Assembly (NCBI RefSeq): GCF_005403045.1
Contig: NZ_BJCL01000006.1
Location: 62,001 to 126,000 of the forward strand
From: Pseudaquabacterium pictum
GTDB taxonomy: Bacteria; Pseudomonadota; Gammaproteobacteria; Burkholderiales; Burkholderiaceae_C
Reading direction: 5' to 3'
DNA length: 64,000 nt
Below are positions 6,949 through 44,999 of the stretch, piece after piece. The position numbers were made by a program, and so were the translations under genes. The notes below the pieces were generated by a model. It did not search any database. It was not told the origin of the DNA and saw nothing but the letters and a program-made list of their open reading frames with translations. Within the stretch, counting starts at the first letter, position 1. Every line of letters begins with the position of its first letter.

Positions 6949-9927
6949 TCAGGCGGCCGGCGGGGCGCTCTGCTCGAACGGCAGCTTCAGCTGCGACAAG
7001 TCCTTGCGGGTCTCCACCAGCACCAGCGGGCCCTCGTCGATCACCACCAGCGGCTTGCGTTCACGCGGCACGTGGATCGGTGCCGGCTCGGCGGCCATCG
7101 CGGCCTGGGCAGCGCGGATCTTCTCGCCATCGCTGTTGACCCACTGCAGGCCCGAGGCCTCGGCCAGGCGCTGCAGGTCGTCCATCGGCAGCACGAAGGG
7201 CGCGACCTTGGGCAGTGCGCGGGGCTGGGCGGCCGGTGCGGCGCTGGCGGCGGCCGGCGGTGCCACGGGGGCGGCCACCACAGGCGCTGCCTGGGCGACC
7301 GGCTCCGCGACGGCATCGGCCAGTGCCACCGTCTCGCCGGCGGTGGCTGCTGCAGCCTCGGCGACGGTCTCGGCCGGCGCATCGGTGGCCGGCTCGGCTG
7401 CGATCGGCTGGCCGTTCTCGTCCAGCAGCGCGCGCTCACGGCGGTTGCGGTCGCGGCCACGGCCGCGGCGGCGGCCGCCTTCGCGCTCGCCGCCCTCGGC
7501 TGCGTCGCCCGGCTCGGTGCTGACAGGCTCGGCGGCCACATCGGCAGCGTCGCCGGTCTCGGCGCGGGCAGGTGCCTCGGTGGTGGCGTCAGCGGCCGGC
7601 AGGCCGTCGACGGCCAGATCGGCACCGGATTCGTCACGGCCACCGCGGCCACCGCGGCGGCGGCGGCGGCGGCGCTGCTCGTCGCCAGCCGCATCGCTGC
7701 CCTCGGCGGCGGCTGCGTCCGGCACGGCGCCGTCGGCCAGCGGCAGGGCGGTGTCGGTCAGCTCGGCCGGGCGCGGTTCGCGCTCAGGGCGCGGCGGGCG
7801 GCGCACGGCCTCGGTGCTGGCGCTGCCATCGGCGCGCAGCGCGGCATCGGCCTCGGCCGGGCGCTCATTGCGGCGGCCGTCACGGCGGCCTTCGCCGCGG
7901 GGTTCCCCACGCTCCGCACGGTCGGCACGCGGGCCGCGCTCGGGGCGGTCGCCCCGGGCCTCGGCCGGCTTGCCGTCGCGGCCGCGGCCGCCACGGTCAC
8001 CGCGCTCGCCGCGGTTGCCACGGTCGGGCCGGTCACGGCGGCCGTCGGGGCGGGCTTCACGCTTGTCGGACTCGACCGGTGCGGCCGGCGTGGCCACCAC
8101 GGCCGGTGCCGGGGCCGGGGCGGGCGCGGCCACCGGGGCCGGCGCGGCACCGCCGAACAGCTTCTTCACCCAGCCGAAGAAGCCGCTGCCGGCGGCCGGC
8201 GCGGGCGGCTGCGCCACCCAGGTGGGCGCGGCAGGGGCTGCTGGGGCAGCGGCGGGTGCGCTGGTCGCCACCGGTGCGGCGGCCTTGGCAGCCACCGGCT
8301 CGGGCTTGGGCGCGGCCACCGGCGCCGGCTGGTCGGGCAGCACGCCCTTGATCACCGGCTCCTGCTTGGGCTTGCTCTTCTCGCGCCGGGTGATGCCGAC
8401 CTCGTCGTCCGGCTCCTCGATCATCGTGTAGCTGGCCTGCAGGTTCTCCAGCCGCGGGTCGTCGTGGCGCAGGCGCTCGAGCTTGTAGTTCGGCGTCTCC
8501 AGGTGCTTGTTGGGCACCAGCAGCACGGTGCAGCGCTGCTTCAGCTCGATCTTGGTGATCTCGGTGCGCTTCTCGTTCAGCAGGAAGCTGGTCACCTCCA
8601 CCGGCACCTGCACATGCACGGCGGCGGTGTTGTCCTTCAGCGTCTCTTCCTGGATGATCCGCAGGATCTGCAGAGCCGACGACTCGGTGTCGCGGATGTG
8701 GCCGGTGCCGTTGCAGCGCGGGCAGGTGATGTGGTTGCCCTCGCTCAGCGCCGGGCGCAGGCGCTGGCGGCTGAGTTCGAGCAGACCGAACTTCGAGATC
8801 GAGCTGAACTGCACCCGGGCGCGGTCCTGGCGCATCGCGTCACGCAGGCGCTGCTCCACCTCGCGGCGGTTCTTGCTCTCCTCCATGTCGATGAAGTCGA
8901 CGACGATCAGGCCGCCGAGGTCGCGCAGCCGCATCTGGCGGGCGATTTCATCGGCCGCTTCCAGGTTGGTGCGGGTGGCGGTTTCCTCGATGTCGCCGCC
9001 CCGGGTGGCACGCGCCGAGTTCACGTCCACGCTGACCAGCGCTTCGGTGTGGTCGATCACGATGGCGCCGCCGGCCGGCAGGTTCACCGTGCGGCTGAAG
9101 GCGGTCTCGATCTGGTGCTCGATCTGGAAGCGCGAGAACAGCGCCGCGTCGTCGCGGTAGCGCTTCACACGGGATGCCGACTCCGGCATCACGTGGTTCA
9201 TGAACTGCTGCGCCTGATCGTAGATGTCGTCGGTATCGATCAGGATCTCGCCGATATCGGACGTGAAGTAGTCGCGGATGGCGCGGATGACCAGCGATGA
9301 TTCCTGGTAGATCAGGAACGCGCCCTTGCCCGCCTTGGCCGCGCCGTCGATGGCGCTCCAGAGCTTGAGCATGTAGTTCAGGTCCCACTGGAGCTCAGGC
9401 GCCGAGCGGCCGATGCCGGCGGTGCGGGCGATCAGGCTCATGCCCTTGGGGTACTCGAGCTGGTCGAGGTTTTCCTTCAGCTCTTCCCGGTCTTCGCCTT
9501 CGATGCGGCGTGACACGCCGCCGCCACGCGGGTTGTTGGGCATCAGCACCAGGTAGCGGCCGGCCAGGCTGACGAAGGTCGTCAGCGCCGCGCCCTTGTT
9601 GCCGCGTTCTTCCTTTTCCACCTGGACCAGCAGTTCCTGGCCCTCGCGGATCGCCTCCTTGATGGTGGCGTTCTTGGCTTCCACGCCTTCGCGGAAGTAC
9701 TGTTTGGAGATTTCCTTGAACGGCAGGAAACCGTGGCGATCTTCGCCGTACTCCACGAAGCAGGCCTCCAGCGAGGGCTCCACCCGCGTGACCACGGCCT
9801 TGTAGATGTTGCCCTTGCGCTGCTCGCGCCCCTCGATCTCGGTTTCGAAGTCGAGCAGTTTCTGCCCGTCGACGATCGCCAGGCGCCGCTCTTCCGGCTG
9901 CGTGGCATTGATCAGCATGCGTTTCAT
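6949..9927 (-). CDS. rne: Ribonuclease E
   Basis: Essential endoribonuclease for mRNA decay and for rRNA and tRNA processing, and scaffold of the degradosome; 992 residues. The N-terminal catalytic half begins [20 protein letters not shown] and contains the S1 domain (about residues 38-120), the catalytic segment VVDFIDMEE in the DNase-I-like domain, and the zinc link CPRCNGTG near residue 400. The C-terminal half is low-complexity, rich in Ala/Pro and Arg-Gly-Asp-Arg repeats (R/G/D tracts around plus-strand 7440-8060), as expected of a disordered RNA- and protein-binding scaffold. It ends in a short conserved-looking block, [11 protein letters not shown] 9927 is chosen because GGAG precedes it and the family N-terminus starts there; an in-frame extension to 9981 has no support. 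Confidence 0.96.
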
Positions 9928-10563
9928 GTGCACTCCAGTCCCGCACGGGCCCGCCAAGGCGGGCACGCGCTGTCTGACCACCGGCCTGACGTCAGTGCGT
10001 CAAGGCAGGCGATCCATTCCGATGCACGAGAAACGGGAAACGGCCGGAGTACGAATCGCCCTGGGCTGCAGTGACCGAATGGCGGTCAGGGATGCAGCGG
10101 GGCCGCGTGCGGCGAAGCGGTGGGGGTGGGCGGCGCCGCATTTCCCCACCCGCGCGCGGTGCGCGCAGGCATCACACCACCGGCGGGCGCTGCCGCACCG
10201 GCCGGTGGCCGGGGCTGCGCCTGGCTGCCGGACGGGTCGTCCAGCAGCTGCAGGTGGGTGGGTGGGAGGGGCGGCATGCAGACCCTGTGGGCTTCGACGC
10301 GGACGGCAGGCCACCACAACAGGGTGATCTGCCGTCCATGAGCTTTTGATCTTCCCTGTGACGGGACGGCTGTGACGACGTGTCTCTTCCAGCGGGCCAA
10401 CGGGGCCGCCGCATCACTTGGGGGACTGCGGCCTGCCGCGCGGACGCCACTGTTGCATCAACGCTTTTGAGCGCCTGTGACGGCGCCCACCGACGATAGA
10501 CCCGCACCTGCCCGGGTAAACTCTGAAAAATCAAGCACTTACGGCCCAATCGTGGCTCGGATC
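9928..10563 (-). promoter_or_regulatory. Long untranslated leader of rne
   Basis: No gene is supported in the roughly 680 bp between rne and rluC. Reading toward rne there are two clear inverted repeats: arms of 9 bp (GGACGGCAG at 10301-10309 and CTGCCGTCC at 10329-10337), and arms of 7 bp with a 2-nt loop (GCCCGCC at 9949-9955 and GGCGGGC at 9958-9964), the latter about 20 nt before the start codon. RNase E in E. coli autoregulates through a long structured 5' leader; a similar role is inferred here and not proven. Confidence 0.55.
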
Positions 10564-10569
10564 ATTATA
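10564..10569 (-). promoter_or_regulatory. Candidate -10 box for rne (possibly shared with rluC)
   Basis: The minus strand reads TATAAT, a perfect -10 hexamer and very rare in this GC-rich DNA. The -35 region is poor. The plus strand of the same bases reads TTATAA, so the site could also serve rluC, whose start is about 36 nt away. If used, rne would have a leader of about 630 nt. Confidence 0.45.
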
Positions 10570-10605
10570 AGCAGCAAACCCGCGGCGTCCCGAGGTGATC
10601 CCACC

Positions 10606-11577
10606 GTGGCGGCCGTGACCGCGCCCGAGGTGCGCCGCGTGATCGTCGACGAAGCCGGCGAAGGCCAGCGGCTGGACAACTTCCTGCTGCGCCTGCTCAA
10701 GGGCGTGCCCAAGACCCATGTCTACCGGGTGATCCGCTCGGGCGAGGTGCGCGTGAACAAGGGCCGGGCCGCGGCCGACACCCGGCTGGCGCTGGGCGAC
10801 GAAGTGCGGGTACCGCCGGTGCGGGTGGCCGAAAAGCCCGCCGACGCCCCGGCAGCTCCGGCCCGCGAATTCCCGATCCTGTTCGAGGACGACCACCTGC
10901 TCGCCATCGCCAAGCCAGCCGGCGTGGCGGTGCATGGCGGCTCGGGCGTCAGCTTCGGCGTCATCGAGCAGCTGCGCCAGGCGCGGCCGGCGGCCAAGTT
11001 CCTGGAGCTGGTGCACCGGCTCGACAAGGAAACCTCGGGCGTTCTGCTGCTGGCCAAGAAGCGCAGCGCGCTGACCCATGTGCAGGACCAGTTCCGCAGC
11101 CGTGACACCGGCAAGATCTACGCCGCCCTGGTGCTGGGCCATTGGCCGGCGAAGCTGAAGGTGATCGACGTGGCGCTGCACAAGACGCTGGACGCCCGCG
11201 GCGAGCGCCATGTGCTGCCGGTGGCGGCCGACCACCCCGACGGCCGGCGCTCGATCAGCCTGGTGCAGGTGGTCACCGACTTCCAGGACTGCACGCTGCT
11301 GGACGTGACGCTGAAGACCGGCCGCACCCACCAGATCCGGGTGCACCTGCAGCAGGCCGGCCACCCGATCGTCGGCGATCCGAAGTACGGCGACTTTGCG
11401 CTGAACAAGCAGTGGGCCCGGGGCGAGGGCCTGGCCGGCCACCGCTTCGACCGCATGTTCCTGCATGCCCGGCAGCTGTCGATCGACCACCCGGCCACCG
11501 GCGAACGCATCACGCTGGCCGCGCCGCTGCCGGCCGACTGCACGGCGCTGCTGCGGCGCCTGGGCGAGCCGCACTGA
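10606..11577 (+). CDS. rluC: 23S rRNA pseudouridine synthase RluC
   Basis: Isomerises uridines of 23S rRNA (955, 2504 and 2580 in E. coli numbering). An N-terminal S4 RNA-binding domain (QRLDNFLLRLLKGVPKTHVYRVI) is followed by the catalytic domain with HRLDKETSGVLLLAKK, where the Asp near residue 139 is the catalytic residue, and the C-terminal KTGRTHQIRVHL motif. The GTG at 10606 is preceded by GAGGTGAT at a good distance; longer in-frame starts would add a non-conserved extension. The divergent rne/rluC pair is conserved in many proteobacteria. Confidence 0.94.
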   Translation: MAAVTAPEVRRVIVDEAGEGQRLDNFLLRLLKGVPKTHVYRVIRSGEVRVNKGRAAADTRLALGDEVRVPPVRVAEKPADAPAAPAREFPILFEDDHLLAIAKPAGVAVHGGSGVSFGVIEQLRQARPAAKFLELVHRLDKETSGVLLLAKKRSALTHVQDQFRSRDTGKIYAALVLGHWPAKLKVIDVALHKTLDARGERHVLPVAADHPDGRRSISLVQVVTDFQDCTLLDVTLKTGRTHQIRVHLQQAGHPIVGDPKYGDFALNKQWARGEGLAGHRFDRMFLHARQLSIDHPATGERITLAAPLPADCTALLRRLGEPH

Positions 11578-11628
11578 CAGGCGCACAGCGGATGCGCGAC
11601 ACTGGCGCGTTCCACACCGCCGCCCGCC

Positions 11629-12297
11629 ATGCCCAGCCCACGCCAACGCCGCTTCGACCTGGTCGTCTTCGACTGGGACGGCACGCTGTTCGATTCCACC
11701 GCGCTGATCACCCGCTGCATCCAGGCCGCCGCCGCCGACCTTGGCCTGCCGGTGCCCAGCGACCAGGCCGCCAGCCATGTCATCGGCCTGGGCCTGACCG
11801 AGGCCCTGCAGATGGCCGTGCCCAGCCTGCCGGCCGCGCGCTATCCCGAGCTGGGCGCGCGCTACCGCCACCACTACTTCAACCGCCAGCATGAGCTGGT
11901 GCTGTTCCCCGGCACGCTGGAGATGCTGCAGGCGTTGAAGGCGCGCAACCACTGGCTGGCGGTGGCCACCGGCAAGAGCCGCCGCGGCCTGGACGAGGCC
12001 TTGCAGACGGTGCAGCTGCATGGCCTGTTCGACGACACCCGCACCGCCGATGAAACCGCCGGCAAGCCGCACCCGCGCATGCTGCTGGAGCTGATGGCCG
12101 CCATCGGCACGGCGCCCGAGCGCACGCTGATGATCGGCGACACCACCCATGACCTGCAGCTGGCCCGCAATGCCGGCACGGCCAGCGTGGCGGTGAGCTT
12201 CGGGGCCCATGCGCCCGAGGCCTTCGGCGCGCTGGGCCCGCTGCACATCGCCCACAGCACCGCCGACCTGGCCGACTGGCTGCTGGCCCATGGCTGA
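11629..12297 (+). CDS. HAD-IA family phosphatase (phosphoglycolate-phosphatase-like)
   Basis: HAD hydrolase of 222 residues. Motif I is FDWDGTLFDS (nucleophile Asp near residue 14), motif II is VATGKSRRGL, and motif IV is MIGDTTHDLQLARNAG. A helical cap is inserted after motif I. Phosphoglycolate phosphatase and pyrophosphatase PpaX-like enzymes share this architecture, so the substrate is not certain. It follows rluC by about 50 nt and overlaps the Rieske gene by 8 nt, suggesting one operon. Confidence 0.88.
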   Translation: MPSPRQRRFDLVVFDWDGTLFDSTALITRCIQAAAADLGLPVPSDQAASHVIGLGLTEALQMAVPSLPAARYPELGARYRHHYFNRQHELVLFPGTLEMLQALKARNHWLAVATGKSRRGLDEALQTVQLHGLFDDTRTADETAGKPHPRMLLELMAAIGTAPERTLMIGDTTHDLQLARNAGTASVAVSFGAHAPEAFGALGPLHIAHSTADLADWLLAHG

Positions 12298-12700
12298 GCC
12301 CGACACGGCGCCGGCGGCCCAGCCGCTGGGCCCGTCGGCCAGCCTGGCCGAGCGGGGCAAGGCCATCGTCTTCGACGTGCTGCTCTGGGGCCAGCCGGCG
12401 CGCGCCTTCGTGTTGCGGCATGACGGCGTGCTGCGCGGGTACATCAACCGCTGCGCCCATGTGCCGGTGGAGATGGACTGGCAGCCGGGAGAGTTCCTCG
12501 ACAGCGATCAGCGCTTCATCGTCTGTTCCATCCACGGCGCCACCTATGAGCCGGCCCAGGGCCGCTGCGTGGGCGGGCCCTGCGGCCGCAGCAAGCTGAT
12601 CGCGCTGGACGTGGGCGAGCAGGCGGGACAGGCCTGTTGGTATCCTTCCCGCGATGTGCGGCCGGTGCCGCCGGCCGCCACCCCACCATCCCCACCGTGA
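12290..12700 (+). CDS. Rieske [2Fe-2S] domain protein
   Basis: Small soluble Rieske-type ferredoxin, 136 residues. The cluster-binding motifs are Cys-Ala-His (RCAHVPVEM, about residue 54) and Cys-x2-His (VCSIHGATYEPAQGRC, about residue 79), followed by the usual GGPC loop. No signal peptide or membrane segment is visible, so it is probably cytoplasmic. A Rieske gene between the HAD phosphatase and the S49 peptidase after rluC is a recurring arrangement in Burkholderiales; the partner oxidoreductase is unknown. Confidence 0.88.
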   Translation: MAEPDTAPAAQPLGPSASLAERGKAIVFDVLLWGQPARAFVLRHDGVLRGYINRCAHVPVEMDWQPGEFLDSDQRFIVCSIHGATYEPAQGRCVGGPCGRSKLIALDVGEQAGQACWYPSRDVRPVPPAATPPSPP

Positions 12701-12707
12701 GCCTGCC

Positions 12708-13727
12708 ATGACAACGCCCGACGACACCCCGACCCCCGCCCCCGAGGGCAGCGGGGCCGTGGCGCCCACCGCCGCGGCACCTGCGGCTGCGCCAGCCACC
12801 ACCCGCCCGGCGCTGGAAGCCTCGCTCGAGACCCTGGCCCGCGCGCTGCTGCAGGACCGGCGTGCCGAGCGGCGCTGGCGCATCTTCTTCCGCCTGGCCT
12901 GGCTGGGCGTGGTGCTGGCGGTGCTGTGGCTGCTGATGTCCGACCGCAACCGCCACACCGCCCCCAGCGGCCCGCACACCGCGCTGGTGGAACTGCGTGG
13001 CGAGATCGCCGCCGACACCGAGGCCAGTGCCGAGCTGATGCTCTCGGGCCTGCGCAGCGCGTTCGAGGACGTGGGCGCCCGCGCCGTGGTGCTGCGCATC
13101 AACAGCCCGGGCGGCAGCCCGGTGCAGTCGGGCATCATCAATGACGAGATCCGCCGCCTGAAGGCGCTGCACAAGAAGAAGGTCTACGCCGTCGTCGAGG
13201 AGGTCTGCGCCAGCGGCGCCTACTACGTGGCGGTGGCGGCCGACGAGATCTATGTCGACAAGGCCAGCATCGTCGGCTCGATCGGCGTGCTGATGGACGG
13301 CTTCGGCTTCACCGGCCTGATGGACAAGCTGGGCGTGGAGCGCCGCCTGCTCACCGCGGGCGAAAACAAGGGCATGCTCGATCCCTTCACCGCGCAGGAC
13401 CCGAAGCAGCGCGCCTATGCCCAGGCCATGATCGACCAGGTGCACCAGCAGTTCATCCGCGTGGTGCGCGAGGGGCGCGGCGCCCGGCTCAAGGAGACCC
13501 CCGACACCTTCTCCGGCCTGTTCTGGAACGGCGAGGAAGCCGTGGCCCTGGGCCTGGCCGACAAGCTGGGCAACCTGGACTACGTCGCCCGCGAGGTGAT
13601 CCAGGCCGAGGAAGTGATCGACTACACGCCGCACGACAACGTCGCCGAGAAGCTGGCCAAGCGCTTCGGCGCGGCCATCGGCGAAGGCGCGATGCGCGCC
13701 GCCGGCGGCCTGGTGCGGCTGCACTGA
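12708..13727 (+). CDS. S49 family signal-peptide peptidase (SppA-like)
   Basis: Membrane-bound serine protease of the single-domain SppA type, 339 residues. A Pro/Ala-rich cytoplasmic start is followed by one membrane helix (about residues 62-80). The catalytic Ser lies in EEVCASGAYYVAVAA (about residue 169) and the probable general-base Lys in AGENKGMLDPF (about residue 221). Their spacing of about 52 residues matches the Ser/Lys pair of B. subtilis SppA. It probably degrades cleaved signal peptides or membrane protein fragments. It starts 8 nt after the Rieske gene. Confidence 0.9.
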   Translation: MTTPDDTPTPAPEGSGAVAPTAAAPAAAPATTRPALEASLETLARALLQDRRAERRWRIFFRLAWLGVVLAVLWLLMSDRNRHTAPSGPHTALVELRGEIAADTEASAELMLSGLRSAFEDVGARAVVLRINSPGGSPVQSGIINDEIRRLKALHKKKVYAVVEEVCASGAYYVAVAADEIYVDKASIVGSIGVLMDGFGFTGLMDKLGVERRLLTAGENKGMLDPFTAQDPKQRAYAQAMIDQVHQQFIRVVREGRGARLKETPDTFSGLFWNGEEAVALGLADKLGNLDYVAREVIQAEEVIDYTPHDNVAEKLAKRFGAAIGEGAMRAAGGLVRLH

Positions 13728-36764: not shown

Positions 36765-37529
36765 TCAGGGCCGCACCGCCGGCGTCTCCACCGGCATGCC
36801 GGCGGCGCGCTGTGCCAGGTGGGCTTCCAGCGCCAGCCACGCCGGCGCATCGGCGGCCCAGGGCTCGGCCCGCACACCCACCACGCAGCCGCGCAGCCGG
36901 CGCTGCAGGCTGCCCAGGGCCTGCCATTCCAGCCGGTAACTGGGGTAGCCGGTGGCATGGCCCTGCGGGATGACGGCGCCGCCCAGGCGCTGACCGGCGC
37001 GCTGGTCATGGCAGTGCAGACAGGCCAGGTTCAGCTGGCCCAGGCGCTGCTGCCACAGCAGCTGGCCCTGCTGGCGCAGCGGTGCCAGGCGGGCATCGTC
37101 GGGCGGCGCCAGCGGCTGGCCGCGTGACTGCAGGCCCACATAGGCCGACAGCGCCAGCAGGTCGGCATGCTCCACCGGCAGCGCCGCGGCCTGCTGGTGG
37201 CGGCTGCGGCAGGCGTTGATGCGGCCGGCCAGGTTCAGCGCGCCGCCGCTGGCAGCATCCCAGGCGGGATAGCGGGCGGCCACGCCTGCCATGCTGCGCG
37301 ATGCGTCGCCATGGCAGTCGGCGCAGCGCTTGCCGCTGGTGCCGGCCGGGCTGCGCCACAGCTGCTCGCCGTCCTGCACCCACAGCATGGCCGGGTTCTG
37401 GCCATCGTCGCGCTGCAGTGCCTGCAGCGCCGGGCCCATGAACGTCAGCCCGGAGCGGCGGCCGTCGTCGGCGGTGGCTGGCAGGGCCAGCATCGCCAGG
37501 GCCAGCAGCGCGGCACTTCGCCGGTTCAT
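36765..37529 (-). CDS. soxA: SoxA, di-heme cytochrome subunit of the SoxAX complex
   Basis: Periplasmic c-type cytochrome that, with SoxX, oxidatively attaches thiosulfate to SoxY. The 254-residue precursor has a Sec signal (MNRRSAALLALAMLALPATA). Two heme-binding motifs are present, CADCH and CLHCH. The cysteine that ligates the active-site heme and carries the persulfide lies in RLRGCVVGVRAEPW. The start overlaps the soxZ stop by 4 nt. It is the last gene of the soxXYZA string; soxB and soxCD are not in the window. Confidence 0.92.
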   Translation of the reverse strand: MNRRSAALLALAMLALPATADDGRRSGLTFMGPALQALQRDDGQNPAMLWVQDGEQLWRSPAGTSGKRCADCHGDASRSMAGVAARYPAWDAASGGALNLAGRINACRSRHQQAAALPVEHADLLALSAYVGLQSRGQPLAPPDDARLAPLRQQGQLLWQQRLGQLNLACLHCHDQRAGQRLGGAVIPQGHATGYPSYRLEWQALGSLQRRLRGCVVGVRAEPWAADAPAWLALEAHLAQRAAGMPVETPAVRP

Positions 37530-37867
37530 GCCGGCGTGATGGCCCGCGTCTCGCGGTGCTGGAAGCCCCAGTCGCCGGTCCATTCGAAGCTGAGCGTGCC
37601 CGGCCCGTCGGCACGCAGCCAGAAGGCCAGGTAGGGGTTGGCGGCGATGGCGCTGTACAGGTCGGCGCCGAACACCAGCTGGCCATCGAGCCGGCATTCG
37701 AAGCGGGTGACGATGTTGCGCGGCACCACGTTGCCGTAGCCGTCGTGGCGCAGGCCGTTCTCCATCGGATGGGCCAGCGTCACCCGCAGCTCGGCCGGCT
37801 GGCCGCGGCGCAGGCTGTCCAGGCCGTGGATCAGGGTGCGCACGCGGGGGGCGGGGGTGTCGGCCAT
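37526..37867 (-). CDS. soxZ: SoxZ, sulfur-carrier partner of SoxY
   Basis: Small protein of 113 residues with the SoxZ immunoglobulin-like fold: LRVTLAHPMENGLRHD, NIVTRFECRLDGQLVFGADL and NPYLAFWLRADGPG. SoxZ pairs with SoxY to form the thiosulfate carrier and is exported with it, having no own signal. It lies 7 nt after soxY and overlaps soxA by 4 nt. Confidence 0.92.
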   Translation of the reverse strand: MADTPAPRVRTLIHGLDSLRRGQPAELRVTLAHPMENGLRHDGYGNVVPRNIVTRFECRLDGQLVFGADLYSAIAANPYLAFWLRADGPGTLSFEWTGDWGFQHRETRAITPA

Positions 37868-37874
37868 GCGGTGT

Positions 37875-38333
37875 TCAGGGTTCGATGCAGGCAGCCAGCG
37901 TCACCAGCACGTCGACATGGTGCGACCACTGGCTGCCATCGCGCATGCGCGCCAGCGCCACCAGTTGCTGCGAGGTGGCCAGCCGGATGCGCGTCTGCAC
38001 CTGGGCCATGCCGCTGGCCGGCGACAGGCTGAAGCGCGCCACATCCCGCTGCGGATTGCGCTCGTTGAAGACCACGATCTCGACCACATGGTCAGCCGCA
38101 GTCATCGGGCTGTCGACCTGCACCCGGATCGGCACCGCGTTGCCGTTCTCCACCAGCGGCGCCACGTCCAGCAGCACCCGGCCTTCGGTGATGGGCCGGC
38201 CGCCGGCCCACTGCCGTTCCACCGCCTGCAGGGTGGGCGCGGCCGACACCGCGGCCACCGGCCGGATCTGCAGCGCGAGGCCCAGGCCGGCGGCCGCACA
38301 CAGGATCTGGCGGCGGGGCAGCAGCAGATTCAT
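37875..38333 (-). CDS. soxY: SoxY-like sulfur carrier with altered C-terminus
   Basis: Exported protein of 152 residues with a Tat-like signal (LLPRRQILCAAAGLGLAL). The SoxY domain is clear (GRVLLDVAPLVENGNAVPIRV, then VFNERNPQRDVARFSLSP). In standard SoxY the chain ends in GGCGG, the swinging arm whose Cys holds the sulfur intermediate. Here the tail reads VTLAACIEP and then stop: the Cys is kept but its flanking glycines are not, and three residues follow it. Other frames do not restore GGCGG, so this is not a simple frameshift. Neighbours soxX (4-nt overlap), soxZ and soxA support the identity. Confidence 0.85.
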   Translation of the reverse strand: MNLLLPRRQILCAAAGLGLALQIRPVAAVSAAPTLQAVERQWAGGRPITEGRVLLDVAPLVENGNAVPIRVQVDSPMTAADHVVEIVVFNERNPQRDVARFSLSPASGMAQVQTRIRLATSQQLVALARMRDGSQWSHHVDVLVTLAACIEP

Positions 38334-38704
38334 CGCAGCGTGGCCAGCCAGGCCACCACGTCGTCGATCTGGGCGTCGGTCAGCAGCGGCTTGCCGCGCT
38401 GGGCGGCGGCCACCTGCTGCAACCCGGTGCTGCGGCCGTAGGCGGGCATCACCGTCTCGGGGTTGAACTGCTCCGGCGCCACCAGGCGCTGCCGCAGCGT
38501 GGCGGCGTCCAGCCGGCTGCCGACGCCGGCCAGCGGCGGTCCGATGGTGCCCTGCAGCGCCGGGTTCTGCCCCGGCATGGCATGGCACAGCACGCACAGG
38601 CCCTGGCTGCGGTGCAGCGCGATGGCCTCGCCACGCGCCGCATCGCCCTGGGCCAGGGCGGCCGGCGCCGCGGTGGCGGCCAGGGCCAGCAGGGCCAGGT
38701 GCAT
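38330..38704 (-). CDS. soxX: SoxX-like monoheme cytochrome c
   Basis: Periplasmic cytochrome of 124 residues with an N-terminal hydrophobic signal, heme motif CVLCH (Cys 37), GTIGPPLAGVG, and VMPAYG with the probable axial Met. This matches the SoxX subunit of SoxAX. It starts 7 nt after the stop of the molybdenum-hydroxylase gene, and its stop overlaps the soxY start, so all appear to be in one transcript. It might serve both systems as electron acceptor (inference). Confidence 0.85.
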   Translation of the reverse strand: MHLALLALAATAAPAALAQGDAARGEAIALHRSQGLCVLCHAMPGQNPALQGTIGPPLAGVGSRLDAATLRQRLVAPEQFNPETVMPAYGRSTGLQQVAAAQRGKPLLTDAQIDDVVAWLATLR

Positions 38705-38711
38705 GTCGGGG

Positions 38712-40901
38712 TCAGGCCTGCTTCAGGTTCTGGTTCTTGATCGGCAGGTCGCGGATGCGCCGGCCAGTGGCGGCAAAGATGGCGTTCAGCACCGCCGGCG
38801 CCGCCACCGCGATGGTGGGCTCACCCACCCCGCCCCAGAACCCGCCCGAGGGCATCACGATGGTCTCGACCTTGGGCATCTGGGCCATCAGCAGCACCGG
38901 GTAGTTGTGGAAGTTGGTCTGCACGAAGCGGCCGTTTTCCAGCGTGCATTCACCCAGCAGCGCGGCCGACAGGCCGTAGGCGAACGAGCCTTCCACCTGG
39001 GCCTCGATCTGCTGCGGGTTCACCGCATGGCCACAATCGGTGGCGGCGACGATGCGGTGCACCGTCAGCTCGCCATCCTTGCTGACCGAGACCTCCGCGC
39101 AGGCCGCCACATAGCTGCCGAAGCCCATGATCTGTGCCAGCCCGCGGTGCACTGCCTGGCCGTTGACCGGCTTGGCCGGCGTGCCCCAGCCGGCGCGCTG
39201 GGCGGCGGCGTTCAGCACCGCCAGGTGCTTCGGGCTGCCGGCCAGCAGCTTCTGGCGCAGGGCCAGCGGGTCCTGCTTGGTGGCATGGGCCACCTCGTCG
39301 AGGAAGCACTCCAGGTAGACCGCGTTCTGGTTCAGGTTCACGCCACGCCAGAAGCCCGGCCGCACCGGCGGGTTGCGCATCGCATGGTCGATCAGCAGGT
39401 TGGGGAAGGCATAGCCCAGCGCGCCCTCGGTGCCGCCCTTGTTCAGCCCCTGGAACACCACCGGGTCCAGCCCGTCGCGCATGTTCTGCGGGAACAGCCC
39501 GGCCAGGATGGACTGGCCCGAGATGCGCATGTGCAGCGCGGTGAGTTGGCCCTGCGCGTCCACCCCGGCCTTCAGCTTGCACTGGGTGACCGGGTGGTAG
39601 AAGCCGTGCTGCATGTCCTCTTCGCGGCTCCAGACCAGCTTGACCGGCGTGCCCGGCATGGCCTTGGCGATGGCCACCGCCTGGCGCACCCAGTCGGTGG
39701 CGCCGCGCCGGCCGAAGCCGCCGCCCAGGTGGATCTTGTAGACCTCGCACTGCGCAGCGGGCAGGCCGGCGGCCTCGGCGGTGGCGGCCAATGCGGCCTC
39801 GCCGTTCTGGGTGGGGGTCCAGACCTCGCAGCGCTCGGGCGTCCAGCGGGCGGTGGCGTTCATCACCTCCATGCAGGCATGGTTCTGGTACGGAAAGCTG
39901 TAGACCGCCTCGATGGTGCGGGCGGCGCCGGCCAGCGCCTCCTTCGCCTGGCCGTTGGTGTGGCCGACCAGGCCCTCGGGCGCGTCCAGCCCGGCCTTCA
40001 GCATCTGGGCGATGGCGGCGCTGTCCAGCTTGGCGTGCGGGCCCTCGTCCCACACGATGGGCAGTGCATCCGCCGCCTTCTTGGCCCGCCACCAGGTGGT
40101 GGCCACCACCGCCACCGCGGTGTCGCTCACCTGCACCACCTGCTTGACGCCGGGCAGCCCCATCACTGCCTTGGCGTCGAAGGACTTGAGCTTGCCGCCG
40201 ACGATGGGGCAGTCGCGGATGGCGGCGTTGAGCATGCCGGGCAGTTGCAGGTCCATGCCGTAGACCTGGGCGCCGGTGGTCTTGGCCACGGTGTCCAGCC
40301 GCAGCACCGATTGACCGGCCAACGTCCAGGTCTTGGGGTCCTTCAGCGGCACCTCGGTGGGCGGCGTCAGCTTGGCGGCCGCAGCGGCCACCGTGCCGTA
40401 GGTGGTACGCCGGCCGCTGGCGGCATGGGTGATCACGCCCTTCTCGGCCTGGCATTGTGCGGCCGGCACGCCCCAGCCGTCGGCCGCGGCCTGCACCAGC
40501 ATCATGCGGGCGGCGGCGCCGCCCTTGCGCACGTAGTCGTGCGATTCCCGCACGCCGCGGCTGCCGCCGGTGCTGAAGTTGCCCCAGGCACGCTGGCGCG
40601 CCAGGTTCTGGCCGGGTGTGGGGTATTCGGTGGTGACGCGGGCCCAGTCGCATTGCAGCTCCTCGGCCACCAACTGGGCCAGGCCGGTCAGCGTGCCCTG
40701 GCCCATCTCGCTGCGGGCGATGCGGACCACCACGGTTTCATCAGGCTTGATCTGCACCCAGACATTGATCTCGGGCGCCGTGCCCTGGCTCTGCGCCATC
40801 GGTACATGGAAGCCCAGCATCAGCCCGCCGGCAGCGGCGCTGCTGGTGGCCAGGAAACGGCGGCGGGCCGGCGAGCGGGGGGTGGTCGTGGTGGTGGTCA
40901 T
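38712..40901 (-). CDS. Molybdenum hydroxylase large subunit, IorB-like, Tat-exported
   Basis: Xanthine-dehydrogenase-family catalytic subunit of 729 residues that binds molybdopterin. The N-terminus [20 protein letters not shown] is a twin-arginine signal. Further motifs typical of the isoquinoline-1-oxidoreductase/aldehyde-oxidase large subunit are SEMGQGTLTGLAQLVAEEL, GGGFGRRG (about residue 390) and a late GGFWGGVGEPTI with the catalytic Glu. No FAD subunit is adjacent, as in the IorAB type, which hands electrons to a cytochrome. ATG 40901 is used; ATG 40916 is possible. Confidence 0.9.
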   Translation of the reverse strand: MTTTTTTPRSPARRRFLATSSAAAGGLMLGFHVPMAQSQGTAPEINVWVQIKPDETVVVRIARSEMGQGTLTGLAQLVAEELQCDWARVTTEYPTPGQNLARQRAWGNFSTGGSRGVRESHDYVRKGGAAARMMLVQAAADGWGVPAAQCQAEKGVITHAASGRRTTYGTVAAAAAKLTPPTEVPLKDPKTWTLAGQSVLRLDTVAKTTGAQVYGMDLQLPGMLNAAIRDCPIVGGKLKSFDAKAVMGLPGVKQVVQVSDTAVAVVATTWWRAKKAADALPIVWDEGPHAKLDSAAIAQMLKAGLDAPEGLVGHTNGQAKEALAGAARTIEAVYSFPYQNHACMEVMNATARWTPERCEVWTPTQNGEAALAATAEAAGLPAAQCEVYKIHLGGGFGRRGATDWVRQAVAIAKAMPGTPVKLVWSREEDMQHGFYHPVTQCKLKAGVDAQGQLTALHMRISGQSILAGLFPQNMRDGLDPVVFQGLNKGGTEGALGYAFPNLLIDHAMRNPPVRPGFWRGVNLNQNAVYLECFLDEVAHATKQDPLALRQKLLAGSPKHLAVLNAAAQRAGWGTPAKPVNGQAVHRGLAQIMGFGSYVAACAEVSVSKDGELTVHRIVAATDCGHAVNPQQIEAQVEGSFAYGLSAALLGECTLENGRFVQTNFHNYPVLLMAQMPKVETIVMPSGGFWGGVGEPTIAVAAPAVLNAIFAATGRRIRDLPIKNQNLKQA

Positions 40902-40912
40902 GGCCGCGTCCC

Positions 40913-41362
40913 TCATGCCTTGCTCACCATCATGATCGCGGCCTGCACCCGGTTGTAGGTGCCGCAGCGGCAGATGTTGGTGATGTTCTCGCGCACCTCG
41001 GCCTCGGTGGGGCGGGGCTTGCTCTTGAGCAGCGCGGCGGCCGCCATCAGCATGCCGCTCTGGCAGAAGCCGCATTGCGGCACGTCCAGCGCCACCCAGG
41101 CCTTCTGCAGCGGGTGCTGGCCGTCGGGCGACAGGCCCTCGATGGTGGTGATCTTCTGCCCCGGCTCGACGCTGGCGACCGGCCGCACGCAGCTGCGGGT
41201 GGGCACGCCGTCGATGTGCACGGTGCAGGCGCCGCACTGGGCGACGCCGCAGCCGTACTTGGTGCCGGTCAGGCCGAGTTGCTCGCGCAGCACCCACAGC
41301 AGCGGGGTGTCGGGTTCGGCATCGTGCGTGCGCACCTGGCCGTTGACGTTCAGGCTGGACAT
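40913..41362 (-). CDS. Molybdenum hydroxylase [2Fe-2S] subunit, IorA-like
   Basis: Small subunit of 149 residues carrying two [2Fe-2S] clusters. The plant-type motif is GCGVAQCGACTV with the fourth Cys in TRSC; the C-terminal helical cluster has QCGFCQSGM and NICRCGTY. It has no signal and is probably co-exported with the Tat-signal-bearing large subunit, 11 nt downstream. ATG 41362 gives the typical start LNVNGQ. Confidence 0.92.
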   Translation of the reverse strand: MSSLNVNGQVRTHDAEPDTPLLWVLREQLGLTGTKYGCGVAQCGACTVHIDGVPTRSCVRPVASVEPGQKITTIEGLSPDGQHPLQKAWVALDVPQCGFCQSGMLMAAAALLKSKPRPTEAEVRENITNICRCGTYNRVQAAIMMVSKA

Positions 41363-41410
41363 CCGGGGCTCCTGATCTGGATCAAGACCCCGATGATGCG
41401 ATGCCTGCGC

Positions 41411-41455: not shown

Positions 41456-42433
41456 TTACTTGGCCAGCAGGTCCAGCCGCTCGATCAGCTTGCGCTCCTT
41501 CACCAGGGTCTCGCGGGCCCAGGCGGCGTAGTCGGCGCTGTTCTTGTACCAGACCGGCTGGTTCAGCTGGTCCAGCACCGCCAGGTGCTGCGGGTCGTCC
41601 ATGGCCTTCCTGAAGGCATCGTGCAGGGTCTTCACCACCGCCGGGTCCATGCCCTTGGGGCCGACCAGGCCGTAGGGCGAGTTGGCCACCACGTTGTAGC
41701 CCAGTTCCTTGGCGGTGGGCACGTTGGGATAGCGCTTCATGCGCTGGTCGCCGAAGCTCACCAGCAGGCGCATCTGGCCGGCGTCGACGAACTTGTCCCA
41801 GCCGGTGGCGTCGCTGGCGGCCATCACATGGCCGCCCAGCAGGGCCTGCATCTGGTCGGCATTGCCCTTGAACGGGATGTGGTTGAGCTGCACGCCGGCG
41901 GCGTCGGACACTTCCTCGATCAGCAGGTGCGGACTGGTGCCGGTGCCGGTGGAGCCGAAGTCGATCTTGCCCGGCGCCTTGCGGGCGGCCTCGATGTAGT
42001 CCTTGAAGGTCTTGTACGGCGAATCGGCGCGCACCACGAAGCCGAAGCTGTAGCCGGTGACGCCGAGGATGAAGCTGAAGTCGTTGATCGGGTGCCAGGC
42101 GGTCTTCTGCATGTGCGGGATGCGCAGCATGCCCATCGGGTACTGGGCGATGGTGTAGCCGTCGGGCCGGCCCTGCAGGCCCAGGTTGCCGGGGCCGTTG
42201 GTGCCGCCACCACCGGGCTGGTTGTTGATGATGATCGGCTGGCCCAGGTGCTTGCTGGCGATCTCGGCCAGGGCGCGCAGGTGGCGGTCGGTGCTGCCAC
42301 CGGCGGGCCAGGGCACGACCAGGGTGATGGCGCGGCTGGGATAGGTGTCGGCGCGGGCCGGGCCGGCGGCGGGCAGGGTGGCGGCCAGGGCGGCCAGGGT
42401 CAGCTGGCGGCGGCGGGAATCGAAGGCGGGCAT
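41456..42433 (-). CDS. Bug/TctC family tripartite tricarboxylate-type binding protein
   Basis: Exported binding protein of 325 residues with a signal segment (RRRQLTLAALAATLPAAGPARA) and the family motifs YPSRAITLVVPWPAGGSTD and INNQPGGGGTNG. Bug proteins bind carboxylates or other small organics and are greatly expanded in Burkholderiales, often without TctAB membrane partners, as here. It precedes the hydroxylase-sox string by about 93 bp containing hairpins; it may bind the substrate of that system or be unrelated. Confidence 0.9.
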   Translation of the reverse strand: MPAFDSRRRQLTLAALAATLPAAGPARADTYPSRAITLVVPWPAGGSTDRHLRALAEIASKHLGQPIIINNQPGGGGTNGPGNLGLQGRPDGYTIAQYPMGMLRIPHMQKTAWHPINDFSFILGVTGYSFGFVVRADSPYKTFKDYIEAARKAPGKIDFGSTGTGTSPHLLIEEVSDAAGVQLNHIPFKGNADQMQALLGGHVMAASDATGWDKFVDAGQMRLLVSFGDQRMKRYPNVPTAKELGYNVVANSPYGLVGPKGMDPAVVKTLHDAFRKAMDDPQHLAVLDQLNQPVWYKNSADYAAWARETLVKERKLIERLDLLAK

Positions 42434-42520: not shown

Positions 42521-43738
42521 TCAACGGCAAGGCGCCGGGGGCTGCAGCGAGGCCGCGGTGGCGCCGCCATCCAGGCTGTGCAGGAAGGCCAGAAGGTCGG
42601 CCCGCTCGCTGCCGCGCAGCTGCAGCGGCTTCAGGATCTGCTCGCCGTCGGCATGCAGCCGGTCGGGGCTCAAGGTGTCGTAGTGGTCGACCACGTCGGC
42701 CAGCGTGGCCTTCTGGCCATCGTGGAAGTAGGGCGCCGTCTGGGCCACATGGCGCAGGCTCGGCACCTTGAACTCGCCGAAGTTGCGGTGCTGGGCCAGC
42801 ACATGGCGGGTCTTCAGCGCCGGGTCATCGGCGCCGGCCGGTGGGCGATCGGCCTCCGGCCCCAGCAGGTTGTGCCGGTTGGCCAGCAGCGCGGCAATGC
42901 CGCGATGGCGGCCGGGGTCGACCACGCCGGGACGGCTGAAGAACAGCGCGCCGATGTCACCGAACTCGCCGTTGGAGAACAACGGCCCGGCATGGCAGGT
43001 GCTGCAGTTGCCGCGGCCGATGAAGATCCGCAGCCCGCGCTGTGCCGCCAGCGGGTAGCGGGCGGCCGCCACCCGGTCGCCGCGGACCAGGGCATCGCGG
43101 AAATCGTCGAATGCGGTGCGCCGGCTCTGCAGCGTGGCCACGTAGGCGCCCAGGGCCTTGGCCAGCGGCACCAGCACCGTTGGCGGGTCGGGGGTGGTGT
43201 CGGTCGGCACGGCGCCGTGGGCGTGGCGCCAGCGGCAGGCCAGCTGGGCATCGCTGCGCAGCAGGCCTGCCAGCCGCGCCGGGTCGGCGCCCATCTCCTG
43301 CGGGTGCAGCAGCGGCTGCAGGGCCTGCGCCCACAGGCTGTCGAAGGCGCCGTCCCAGCCCCACCAGCGCTGCTGGGCGGCGTTCAGCAGCGTGGGCGTG
43401 TGGCGGTCCAGCGGTGTGTCGGCCGCGCCGCCAGGCTGGCTGCGGCCCAGGGCGCGCGGCCGGCCATCGGTGAAGCCACGGTGCGGCACATGGCAGCTGG
43501 CGCAGGCCAGGTTGCCGCCCGCCGACAGCCGCGGCTCGAAGAACAGCGCCCGGCCCAGGGCGATGGCCGCCGGCCGGCCGCTCTGGGCATTGCCGGGGTC
43601 GCGCGCCGGTGCGGGCGGCCAGGGGCCGTGCGACAGGATGCGGGCCCGCTCGTCGTCACTGAAATCCAGCAGCGCTGCCGGCACTGCCGGTGCCACCAGG
43701 CCAAGCAGCGCCATGGCCAGCCAGCGCCGCAGGCTCAT
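42521..43738 (-). CDS. Di-heme cytochrome c peroxidase/MauG family protein
   Basis: Exported protein of 405 residues with an N-terminal signal (RRWLAMALLGLVAPAVPA). Two heme c sites are present: CASCH followed by VPHRGFTDGR in the N-terminal domain, and CSTCH followed by AGPLFSNGEFGD in the C-terminal domain. The family reduces peroxide or, like MauG, oxidises protein or small-molecule substrates. It overlaps the YtkA-like gene by 4 nt and forms the end of a three-gene cluster with it and an exported amidohydrolase. Confidence 0.9.
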   Translation of the reverse strand: MSLRRWLAMALLGLVAPAVPAALLDFSDDERARILSHGPWPPAPARDPGNAQSGRPAAIALGRALFFEPRLSAGGNLACASCHVPHRGFTDGRPRALGRSQPGGAADTPLDRHTPTLLNAAQQRWWGWDGAFDSLWAQALQPLLHPQEMGADPARLAGLLRSDAQLACRWRHAHGAVPTDTTPDPPTVLVPLAKALGAYVATLQSRRTAFDDFRDALVRGDRVAAARYPLAAQRGLRIFIGRGNCSTCHAGPLFSNGEFGDIGALFFSRPGVVDPGRHRGIAALLANRHNLLGPEADRPPAGADDPALKTRHVLAQHRNFGEFKVPSLRHVAQTAPYFHDGQKATLADVVDHYDTLSPDRLHADGEQILKPLQLRGSERADLLAFLHSLDGGATAASLQPPAPCR

Positions 43739-44151
43739 CGCAGGTCGATCTCGCGGCTGAGCCGGCGCGCCGGCTGGCCGTTGGCAGCCGGCAGGTCGAA
43801 CAGCAGGCGCCAGCGGCCGGCCATGTGGAACAGCAGCCCTTCGACGCGGAAGCGGCCGTCACCCAGCGCGGTGACGGTGGTGCGGTAGTTCATGCCATGG
43901 CGGTGGGCCGGCATGTCGGCATCGACCACCAGCGTGGCCGGCAGCGGCTGGCCGGCCGCCGGGCAGACGACGATGTCCAGCGCGAAATGCCGGCCCAGCG
44001 GCAGCGGCGCCGGGCGCGCCGCAAACGCCAGCTGCAGGCCATCGGCCTCGGCCAGCAGGCGGTGGGCAGCGGGCAGGCTGTCGCCGCACGCGGCCTGGGC
44101 GGTGGCGCCGGCCAGCACCAGCGCCAGCATGGCGGTGCCGCGGCGGCTCAC
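43735..44151 (-). CDS. Exported YtkA/FixH-like protein
   Basis: Protein of 138 residues starting at GTG 44151, which overlaps the amidohydrolase stop as GTGA. A signal peptide (MLALVLAGATAQAACG) leads into a single immunoglobulin-like domain with PLGRHFALDIVVCPA, DADMPAHRHGMNYRT and FHMAGRWRLLFDL. The His/Met-rich HRHGM stretch is typical of YtkA-like domains, which are linked to copper or heme assembly. The function here is not known. Confidence 0.75.
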   Translation of the reverse strand: MSRRGTAMLALVLAGATAQAACGDSLPAAHRLLAEADGLQLAFAARPAPLPLGRHFALDIVVCPAAGQPLPATLVVDADMPAHRHGMNYRTTVTALGDGRFRVEGLLFHMAGRWRLLFDLPAANGQPARRLSREIDLR

Positions 44152-44999
44152 ACCTTGGCGCCCCGCACCGCCTGCACCAGGGCCACCCCGTTGCGCCAGC
44201 CGATGGCCTCGGCCACCGGCGCCGGCAGGCTGGCCAGCCAGCCGCGTGAATAGCTGGCATGGCCGGTGATGTAGTGCCAGCGCTCGGGCGTGAAGGTGTC
44301 GGTGCCGATCATGAAGCGGTCGGGGAACTCGGTGAAGGCCTCGCGCCAGCCGGGGTCGACCTGGCTGCCGGTGGCGTGGTCGCCGCGGAAGGCCAGGTCG
44401 CACCACAGCCGCGGATGGCGGCGCAGCACCTCGCGCACCTTCTCGGGCCGGTCGAAGCCGGAGTGCGCCCACAGCACCCGGGCCTCGGGCCACTGTTTCA
44501 GCAGGCGTTCGATGCAGTCGACATCGCTGTGGGCATGCAGCAGCAGGCCACGCTCCTTGGCCAGTGCCACCATGCGGCGCGGCACCGGCAGGTCGGCATC
44601 GGCACCGTAGAGGTGGAACTCGCCGACGCCGACGTAGCGGTACTTCGCCAGCCGCTCTTCCAGGTAGCCGACCACGCTGGCATCGTTCATCCAGCTGCCG
44701 ATCTCGCCGCGGCTGCGGTAGGGCCGCAGCTCGGGCACGATCAGATCCGGTGCCTCGGCGGCCAGCAATTGCGTGCCCTGGTCGTTGGAGCTGGAGACCA
44801 GCGCGCCGCGCAGCCCCGCCTGGCGGAGGATGGCCACCGCCTGCTTGGGCGGCACCAGGTCCCAGGCGTCGTGGCTGTAGTGGATGTGGGCGTCGAACAG
44901 CGGCAGCTCCGGCGCGGCACGCACGGTGCCGCCGGCCAGTGCCGCAGCGGCCGCCAGCCAGCCCTGGAAGCCGCGGCGGGTGAGGGGGGTGGATTCCAT
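44148..44999 (-). CDS. Exported amidohydrolase-fold protein
   Basis: Protein of 283 residues with a Tat-like start (TRRGFQGWLAAAAALAGGTVRA). The TIM-barrel amidohydrolase fold is indicated by DAHIHYSHD, GVGEFHLYG, LLLHAHSDVD, LWAHSGF and MIGTDTF, which give candidate metal-binding residues. The reaction is unknown. Being exported is unusual for an amidohydrolase and fits with its periplasmic neighbours, the YtkA-like protein and the di-heme peroxidase, with which it shares 4-nt overlaps. Confidence 0.82.
   Translation of the reverse strand: MESTPLTRRGFQGWLAAAAALAGGTVRAAPELPLFDAHIHYSHDAWDLVPPKQAVAILRQAGLRGALVSSSNDQGTQLLAAEAPDLIVPELRPYRSRGEIGSWMNDASVVGYLEERLAKYRYVGVGEFHLYGADADLPVPRRMVALAKERGLLLHAHSDVDCIERLLKQWPEARVLWAHSGFDRPEKVREVLRRHPRLWCDLAFRGDHATGSQVDPGWREAFTEFPDRFMIGTDTFTPERWHYITGHASYSRGWLASLPAPVAEAIGWRNGVALVQAVRGAKV

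Follow-up and report, generated by a model that had tools for sequence, protein, structure and literature searches.

We analysed a 64,000-nucleotide stretch of the genome of Pseudaquabacterium pictum (hereafter the window) and found that six adjacent genes in it, encoding an IorAB-type molybdenum hydroxylase and the Sox proteins SoxX, SoxY, SoxZ and SoxA, recur as a set in many other proteobacterial genomes. The module they form is real, widely conserved and apparently undescribed, and it is assembled from known parts. IorAB and SoxXYZA very probably serve one process. The six genes would constitute one periplasmic module, for which we propose the name IorAB-SoxXYZA system.

In the scheme that we put forward, SoxXA would oxidatively attach a sulfur compound to the cysteine in the arm of SoxY; this compound would be a thiol or a persulfide and not thiosulfate. 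IorAB, standing in for the SoxCD and SoxB of the classical cycle, would then oxidise a carbon at the aldehyde level, either in the adduct on the carrier or in a product made from it, and electrons from both steps would pass to c-type cytochromes (SoxX/SoxA, and FccA where present). IorAB-family enzymes hydroxylate carbon, and the simplest joint scheme is therefore one in which the cargo or its derivative carries an oxidisable aldehyde-level carbon; an organosulfur compound is a plausible substrate. We hold tentatively that IorAB carries out a carrier-bound or carrier-linked carbon oxidation. Its narrower form, in which SoxXA attaches an organic thiol (or an aldehyde as a thiol adduct) by its sulfur to the AACxE arm and the molybdenum hydroxylase oxidises it at carbon while still on the arm, is possible, with somewhat less confidence. 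If true, a carrier known from inorganic sulfur oxidation would serve periplasmic organosulfur metabolism.

Conservation of the iorAB-soxXYZA block

The block lies on the minus strand at positions 36765-41362 of the window, in the order iorA, iorB, soxX, soxY, soxZ, soxA, with spacings of 11, 7, -4, 7 and -4 nucleotides between successive genes. Recomputing both order and spacings gave the same values as the first-pass annotation of this DNA, which had been made from the sequence alone and had suggested that the six genes work as one unit.

The adjacency of iorAB and soxXYZA is conserved across genomes, as that annotation had proposed to check, and far beyond this strain. Our family sample consisted of 299 genomes, 39 of which, the window's own included, hold an AACIE-arm SoxY over cut-off; together with 13 loci below the cut-off, and leaving out one with another kind of arm (L090), this gave 51 loci. 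iorB adjoins the AACIE SoxY in 48 of them, and all six genes lie on one strand and in the same order in 43. Four of the eight incomplete loci stop at a contig end (L056, L071, L084 and L087). Among the others, L060 is without iorAB, L053 is missing soxX and retains a mere fragment of soxA, L081 shows no match to soxA, and L086 consists of iorAB and soxYZ only, with no soxX or soxA match within 20 kb, a composition that hints at the carrier as the indispensable Sox component.

A scan of named species covered the best 80 of at least 541 relatives and overlaps the family set, of which it is not independent. Enough flanking sequence was present in 67 of the 80, and 66 of these have the six genes in order, inserted genes being allowed; in the remaining one (L177) soxX and soxY are separated by other genes. 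Phylum-wide, strong matches were found in 20 of 398 genomes, and the 19 strong-match loci other than the window's, which come from four other families, all carry the six genes in order. Since it recurs in other families, the block is not a chance arrangement. Six sub-cut-off loci from other families of the class were set aside, as they have other kinds of SoxY, are not the module and show no iorAB match: four hold soxXYZA without iorAB (L102, L103, L106 and L107; the SoxY of L102, L106 and L107 ends in GGCGG) and two hold soxYZ only (L104 and L105).

Rearranged form and IorB paralogues

In seven loci of the window's family, which we call type B (L199-L204 and L207), iorAB stands tail-to-tail with soxX-soxY-soxZ-soxA. 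The related IorB proteins of these loci matched at 54-59% identity, and their SoxY arms end in ACFDAS or ACFDET. Retention of the gene set through such a rearrangement would be hard to explain by hitch-hiking. In the IorB tree, 25 paralogues fall on one side of a branch with full support (SH-aLRT, Shimodaira-Hasegawa-like approximate likelihood ratio test, 100), and the sox-linked types A, B and C fall on the other together with four sox-less copies. The 25 paralogues comprise 21 of 42 matches in ten genomes, three from another search and a copy in L088, which stands beside a type A block and was left out of the flank check; no sox genes were detected in the 1.5-kb flanks of the remaining 24 with the window's Sox proteins as queries.

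The idea of one functional unit draws support from the distant conservation, from the rearranged form and from the lack of any SoxB or SoxC over cut-off in the genome (see below). Two unrelated functions, kept together by co-regulation or as a moving cassette, would suit the finding that the block sits in changing surroundings and on plasmids, so that it moves or is moved. However, the set has been kept across several families and through rearrangement, both in the tail-to-tail type B and where sulfide dehydrogenase genes lie before soxX or after soxA, and we regard this explanation as very unlikely.

The molybdenum hydroxylase

The iorA-like gene (40913-41362, minus strand) encodes a two-[2Fe-2S] subunit of 149 residues with the Pfam domains Fer2 and Fer2_2, and the iorB-like gene (38712-40901, minus strand) a molybdopterin hydroxylase large subunit of 729 residues with MoCoBD_1 and MoCoBD_2. 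The iron-sulfur and molybdenum subunits are thus encoded separately, and family scans found no flavin adenine dinucleotide (FAD) subunit within the six-gene block. The closest solved structure to IorB is 8gy3_C, an aldehyde dehydrogenase large subunit (262 bits over residues 12-726; the runner-up scored 100 bits), and the closest to IorA is the small subunit of the same enzyme, 8gy3_B (172 bits), so that both window proteins match this enzyme best and over nearly their full length. We take 8gy3 to be a membrane-bound enzyme of acetic acid bacteria with a cytochrome subunit of its own; the window's IorAB differs in being partnered with SoxXYZA.

The window's IorB has a GVGEP motif and an N-terminal start of the RRxFL type. 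A GVGEP-type motif is present in all 47 type A rows of the alignment, and the IorA cysteine pattern for both clusters is complete in all 47 type A rows and all seven type B rows. Specificity positions were also detected in IorB, for example C385 and, directly before GVGEP, F688 and W689.

SoxXYZA and the altered SoxY arm

The window's SoxXA has its haems and its active-site cysteine, as judged from family models, motifs and solved structures. soxX (38330-38704, minus strand) encodes a mono-haem cytochrome c of 124 residues that scores 73.3 bits against a TIGR04485 cut-off of 61, and its closest solved structure is chain 1h31_B of a SoxAX structure. The product of soxA (36765-37529, minus strand), a di-haem cytochrome of 254 residues with the active-site cysteine, scores 206.9 bits against a TIGR04484 cut-off of 110; its closest structure is 1h31_A (158.5 bits, in an alignment that covers the cysteine region), and its sequence holds two CxxCH motifs and the stretch CVVGVRA. 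soxZ (37526-37867, minus strand, 113 residues) belongs to the Pfam SoxZ family (PF08770), but at 67.3 bits it stays below the cut-off of 76 of the true-SoxZ model TIGR04490.

The carrier gene soxY (37875-38333, minus strand, 152 residues) encodes a variant with an AACIE C-terminal arm. Its label in the first-pass annotation holds in so far as the protein is SoxY-related, but not in the sense of a true thiosulfate carrier: it scores 191.2 bits against TIGR04487, "SoxY-related AACIE arm protein" (cut-off 172), and only 81.4 bits against the true-SoxY model TIGR04488 (cut-off 125). The protein ends in ...VTLAACIEP, where the classical carrier has GGCGG. By eye, the N-termini of IorB and SoxY are of the twin-arginine kind and those of SoxA and SoxX are signal-like; to judge from these N-termini, all six gene products are probably periplasmic.

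The residues expected for loading of the carrier are strongly conserved. Cys149 and Glu151 of SoxY are invariant across an alignment of 42 sequences, and the arm reads Cx[ED] in all 50 type A rows and GGCGG in the 15 canonical rows. The SoxX haem is present in 48 of 48 type A rows. In SoxA, after removal of the L053 fragment, all 46 type A rows have the haems and the active-site cysteine with an arginine four places before it; all seven type B rows keep the haems, the cysteine and the preceding arginine, with VQA in place of VRA. Outside the window's family the arm ends in SACTE in the four loci of f184, SACID in the f206 locus, GACVE in Roseomonas and PACAE in Neorhizobium. The ratio of non-synonymous to synonymous substitution rates (dN/dS) was below 1 in all 22 gene comparisons with four relatives, ranging from 0.12 (iorB against L108) to 0.86 (soxZ against L068).

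With SoxXA and the arm cysteine intact, loading of SoxY by oxidative attachment of a sulfur compound has probably been preserved, and the altered arm together with the absence of SoxB favours a different cargo or a different fate for it. PMC5336275 reports a SoxYZ-S-sulfane adduct as the most likely true carrier in the classical pathway, so the arm could be primed with sulfane in the present system too. Trees of SoxA and SoxY were built with 22 type A rows. In the SoxA tree, from which the program dropped one row (L107_can), the canonical rows form one side of a branch (94/83); in the SoxY tree they sit on a long branch beside type A, which leaves room for either one origin or two for the type A and type B SoxY.

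No SoxB or SoxC over cut-off in the P. pictum genome

The first-pass annotation had noted that soxB and soxCD are absent from the locus. This is correct, and for SoxB and SoxC it extends to the whole genome, in an assembly of 6.14 Mb and 64 contigs that is 99.97% complete: the best SoxB candidate scored 88.8 bits against a cut-off of 550 and the best SoxC candidate 19.7 bits against 420, while no search for SoxD was made. The window's SoxXYZA therefore cannot be accounted for as spare parts for a SoxB-SoxCD cycle in P. pictum, unless the assembly lacks the genes. That annotation had named as fatal to its reading a lack of co-transcription and an adjacency confined to this strain, together with a normal soxB-soxCD locus elsewhere, and on the latter two points the genomes gave a different picture.

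Fifty other genomes hold the system or something closely related to it; SoxB is over cut-off in 36 of them and not in 14. Thirteen of the latter are at least 96% complete, and the fourteenth (G291, 58%) has part of a SoxB. SoxB is nevertheless found in 30 of the 39 over-cut-off genomes of the family sample versus 133 of the 260 others (odds ratio 3.2, p 0.003, not corrected for kinship). Judging from these counts, the module does not need SoxB, yet it tends to occur in sulfur-oxidising genomes.

This over-representation is what would be expected of a thiosulfate or sulfide side branch, in which the product of SoxXYZA is passed in trans to SoxB and SoxCD from other loci and IorAB is a bystander. 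We consider such a branch quite unlikely, given the P. pictum genome and the 14 of 50 others without SoxB over cut-off, the uniform difference between the Cx[ED] arm of the type A SoxY and the canonical GGCGG, and a linkage to iorAB that is too regular to be incidental.

Methanethiol oxidase yields formaldehyde and sulfide, products that would suit IorAB plus a sulfur carrier. Coupling to this enzyme was not supported as the common link: its protein SBP56 was found in 15 of 270 family genomes and not in that of P. pictum. Five of the 15 (G005, G046, G133, G199 and G253) are among the 39 genomes over cut-off, and G267 has iorAB with soxXYZ, so the two overlap in part but by no means generally.

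Flavocytochrome c sulfide dehydrogenase within the block

In 14 of the 19 loci of other families, a match to fccB, the flavin subunit gene of flavocytochrome c sulfide dehydrogenase, separates iorB from soxX; in five of the 14 the scan also detected fccA, the gene for the cytochrome. These 14 loci belong to the same phylum as the window but to a different order, and are probably alphaproteobacterial. The same layout was found in named alphaproteobacteria, namely Ancylobacter, a Rhizobiales genome, a Kiloniellaceae genome, a Methylobacterium plasmid and a Neorhizobium plasmid; in Roseomonas, cytochrome and flavoprotein genes are placed after soxA. Pfam confirmed the identity of FccB for four block proteins (L170, L183, L263 and L283), and the L170 protein matched a solved sulfide dehydrogenase flavin subunit with 458.6 bits. 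That FccB is encoded so often within the block hints at a handling of sulfide or sulfane by these systems.

Such handling could also serve the enzyme itself. SoxXYZA, with FccAB in many alphaproteobacteria, might capture sulfide or sulfane and so avert poisoning or restore the sulfido ligand of the molybdenum; neither SoxB nor SoxCD would be required for this, and passages of PMC12997753 and PMC11237559 propose maturation, redox-control or protective roles for SoxYZ-like carriers that accompany pyrroloquinoline quinone (PQQ) dehydrogenases. The fccB genes inside the block suit this reading. Against it stand the 24 IorB paralogues, for which the same need at the molybdenum site is expected and which have no detectable sox genes within 1.5 kb, and the persistence of IorABs without sox; it leaves unexplained why only one IorB clade has sox genes. 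Upkeep or protection of the enzyme is in our view unlikely.

IorAB without Sox and other points against the proposed scheme

Several findings weigh against an obligate coupling of IorAB and Sox, and against the organosulfur scheme proposed above. A close IorB (58-70% identity) occurs in 36 plasmid records, 32 of which gave no match to SoxA at E 1e-20 (Sinorhizobium, 23; Rhizobium, 6; Methylosinus, 2; Agrobacterium, 1), while the four that do come from Methylobacterium, Roseomonas and Neorhizobium (two). Four sox-less iorABs exist in the window's own family (L205, L206, L208 and L209, the last with an in-frame stop), and one family locus, L060, is the converse, soxXYZA without iorAB. In a tree of 71 IorBs, nine of the ten sox-less rows lie within the sox-linked clade and the tenth (L206) at its base; IorAB can therefore live without Sox, and the coupling is not obligate. 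The arm is not uniform either: four f225 loci (L277-L280) lack the acidic residue and end in AACLIG or AACVIG. Evolution is fast in some Sox genes, as the soxZ value of 0.86 against L068 illustrates, and the over-representation of SoxB leans towards an inorganic-sulfur setting. Finally, the substrate and the chemistry are our inference.

On the 71-IorB tree the sox label changes at least five times, by a quick method that does not fix the direction. The link between iorAB and sox is common and probably old, and Sox appears to have been lost now and then with IorAB retained. The f225 loci keep the whole block, although their arm has no acidic residue; in L277, XdhC-MobA-like and molybdenum-cofactor synthesis genes follow it.

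We inspected ten regions, seven of them without sox. In all seven, which are alphaproteobacterial, a gene for a CxxCH cytochrome lies within 2.5 kb of iorAB. Five of the loci on Sinorhizobium and Rhizobium plasmids (L282, L284, L289, L290 and L291) have an IorAB of the same clade without sox and a small cytochrome c gene ahead of it. The four sox-less copies in the window's family, by contrast, showed no cytochrome gene in their surroundings; the lone CxxCH (in L208) resembles, by eye, the metal site of an alcohol dehydrogenase.

An IorAB that needs a cytochrome partner, as these seven loci seem to indicate, and whose block holds no FAD subunit might simply share electrons with the Sox cytochromes: it would oxidise a free aldehyde or heteroaromatic compound with SoxX/SoxA (or FccA) as a mere acceptor, and SoxYZ would act separately. 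Sharing of this kind leaves the retention of SoxY, SoxZ and the active-site cysteine of SoxA unexplained. Nor do Sox and other cytochromes replace one another in a simple exchange, since in L186 soxXYZA coexists with a cytochrome c gene upstream and a cytochrome c gene adjoins the set in the Neorhizobium locus L288, and the four sox-less copies of the window's family have no visible cytochrome gene. Electron sharing alone is thus rather unlikely, and we retain carrier-bound or carrier-linked carbon oxidation as the working scheme.

Relation to known systems

The classical Sox system shares with the window SoxXA and SoxYZ, the active-site cysteine of SoxA, the haems and the arm cysteine of SoxY. 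The window differs from it in an arm that reads AACxE and not GGCGG, in the lack of SoxB and SoxC over cut-off in the genome, and in having a xanthine-oxidase-family molybdoenzyme adjoining in place of SoxCD.

The first-pass annotation knew of no described system with this layout. We likewise found no description of iorAB with soxXYZA among the matches listed from open-access full texts, a body from which subscription papers are mostly absent, and passages of PMC7608252 and PMC10708946 do not mention the module. The statement needs qualifying on two points: the SoxY variant is covered by a named NCBI family, and descriptions exist of SoxYZ-like carriers next to PQQ alcohol dehydrogenases. The window's SoxY is a member of that family, TIGR04487, over cut-off and with the AACxE arm, and NCBI annotation applies the family's name to proteins of IorAB-linked blocks on plasmids of Methylobacterium and Neorhizobium. 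The model itself names a single protein; no statement tying it to IorAB was seen in material that did not include the model's own description.

Other divergent SoxY carriers also stand beside dehydrogenases. The quinoprotein-associated SoxYZ-like carrier of TIGR04557, with its SoxH-like hydrolase and PQQ alcohol dehydrogenase, is one such case, its role unknown, and the SoxYZ-S2 and -S4 of symbionts, in passages of PMC11237559, are another. These systems have a fused SoxYZ and a PQQ dehydrogenase (methanol and formate dehydrogenases for S4, in the same passages), and not an IorAB-type molybdenum enzyme. In the window the carrier genes are separate, score 51.2 and 41.2 bits against the TIGR04557 cut-off of 140, and have no PQQ dehydrogenase in their block. 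Passages of PMC11237559 and PMC12997753 report divergent SoxY carriers beside PQQ alcohol dehydrogenases, and those of PMC11237559 also beside xoxF with formate dehydrogenase, dimethyl sulfoxide (DMSO) reductase and octahaem tetrathionate reductase, all with roles unproven.

The present results give the AACIE-arm SoxY family a fixed partner set in several proteobacterial families, and connect a Sox carrier to a molybdenum enzyme of a type that oxidises carbon, in genomes that possibly lack any SoxB. If the parts cooperate, reading soxXYZA as thiosulfate oxidation would be wrong for these genomes, and a route for carrier-bound organic sulfur would be directly testable in ordinary laboratory bacteria, with the naturally sox-less loci of Sinorhizobium and Rhizobium as a built-in comparison.

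Neighbouring genes and other Sox-related loci

Two genes upstream of the block, one for a TctC-type protein (41456-42433) and a MauG-like gene (42521-43738), were considered as members of the unit and excluded, as they are not generally shared among loci. Outside the six genes no cluster is common to more than 8 of 55 loci; the TctC-like proteins make up that eight-locus cluster, and their positions vary. The region upstream of tctC (42521-44999) encodes the MauG-like di-haem protein and, by eye, a small secreted and an amidohydrolase-like secreted protein, none of them common to other loci.

The leader of iorA contains an FNR/Anr-like box, TTGATCCAGATCAG, at 41372-41385, with one mismatch to what we take to be the FNR/Anr motif; it is the sole such match in the window. 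Control of this type was rejected as a feature of the system, since in 1 of 47 loci, the window's own, the 300 bases ahead of iorA hold a box with no more than one mismatch. As a control, 5 of 1880 random windows match.

The P. pictum genome has four SoxY-like genes, one in the window and one each on contigs 18, 10 and 5. The locus on contig 5 (L093, 28600-48500; genes at about 9776-13583) seems to be of the TIGR04557 type. Its SoxYZ-like carrier, which we take from its position to be fused, has two neighbours that score over the cut-offs of their models, a zinc metallohydrolase of quinoprotein relays (TIGR04558; 393.5 bits) and an alcohol dehydrogenase of the PQQ kind (TIGR03075), and the locus has no match to the window's SoxX or SoxA. 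On contig 18 (L091, 32900-52800), the segment 5253-11699 holds soxA, a SoxY with the GGCGG arm, SoxZ, a SoxH-like metallohydrolase and an efflux-type permease, the last two under the cut-offs of their models, with thioredoxin and rhodanese domains close by. On contig 10 (L092, 6436-10386), a SoxY over the true-SoxY cut-off lies near a flavin subunit of flavocytochrome c sulfide dehydrogenase, and its neighbours include a small cytochrome c, recognised by eye, and a TsuA-like thiosulfate transporter that scores under its cut-off.

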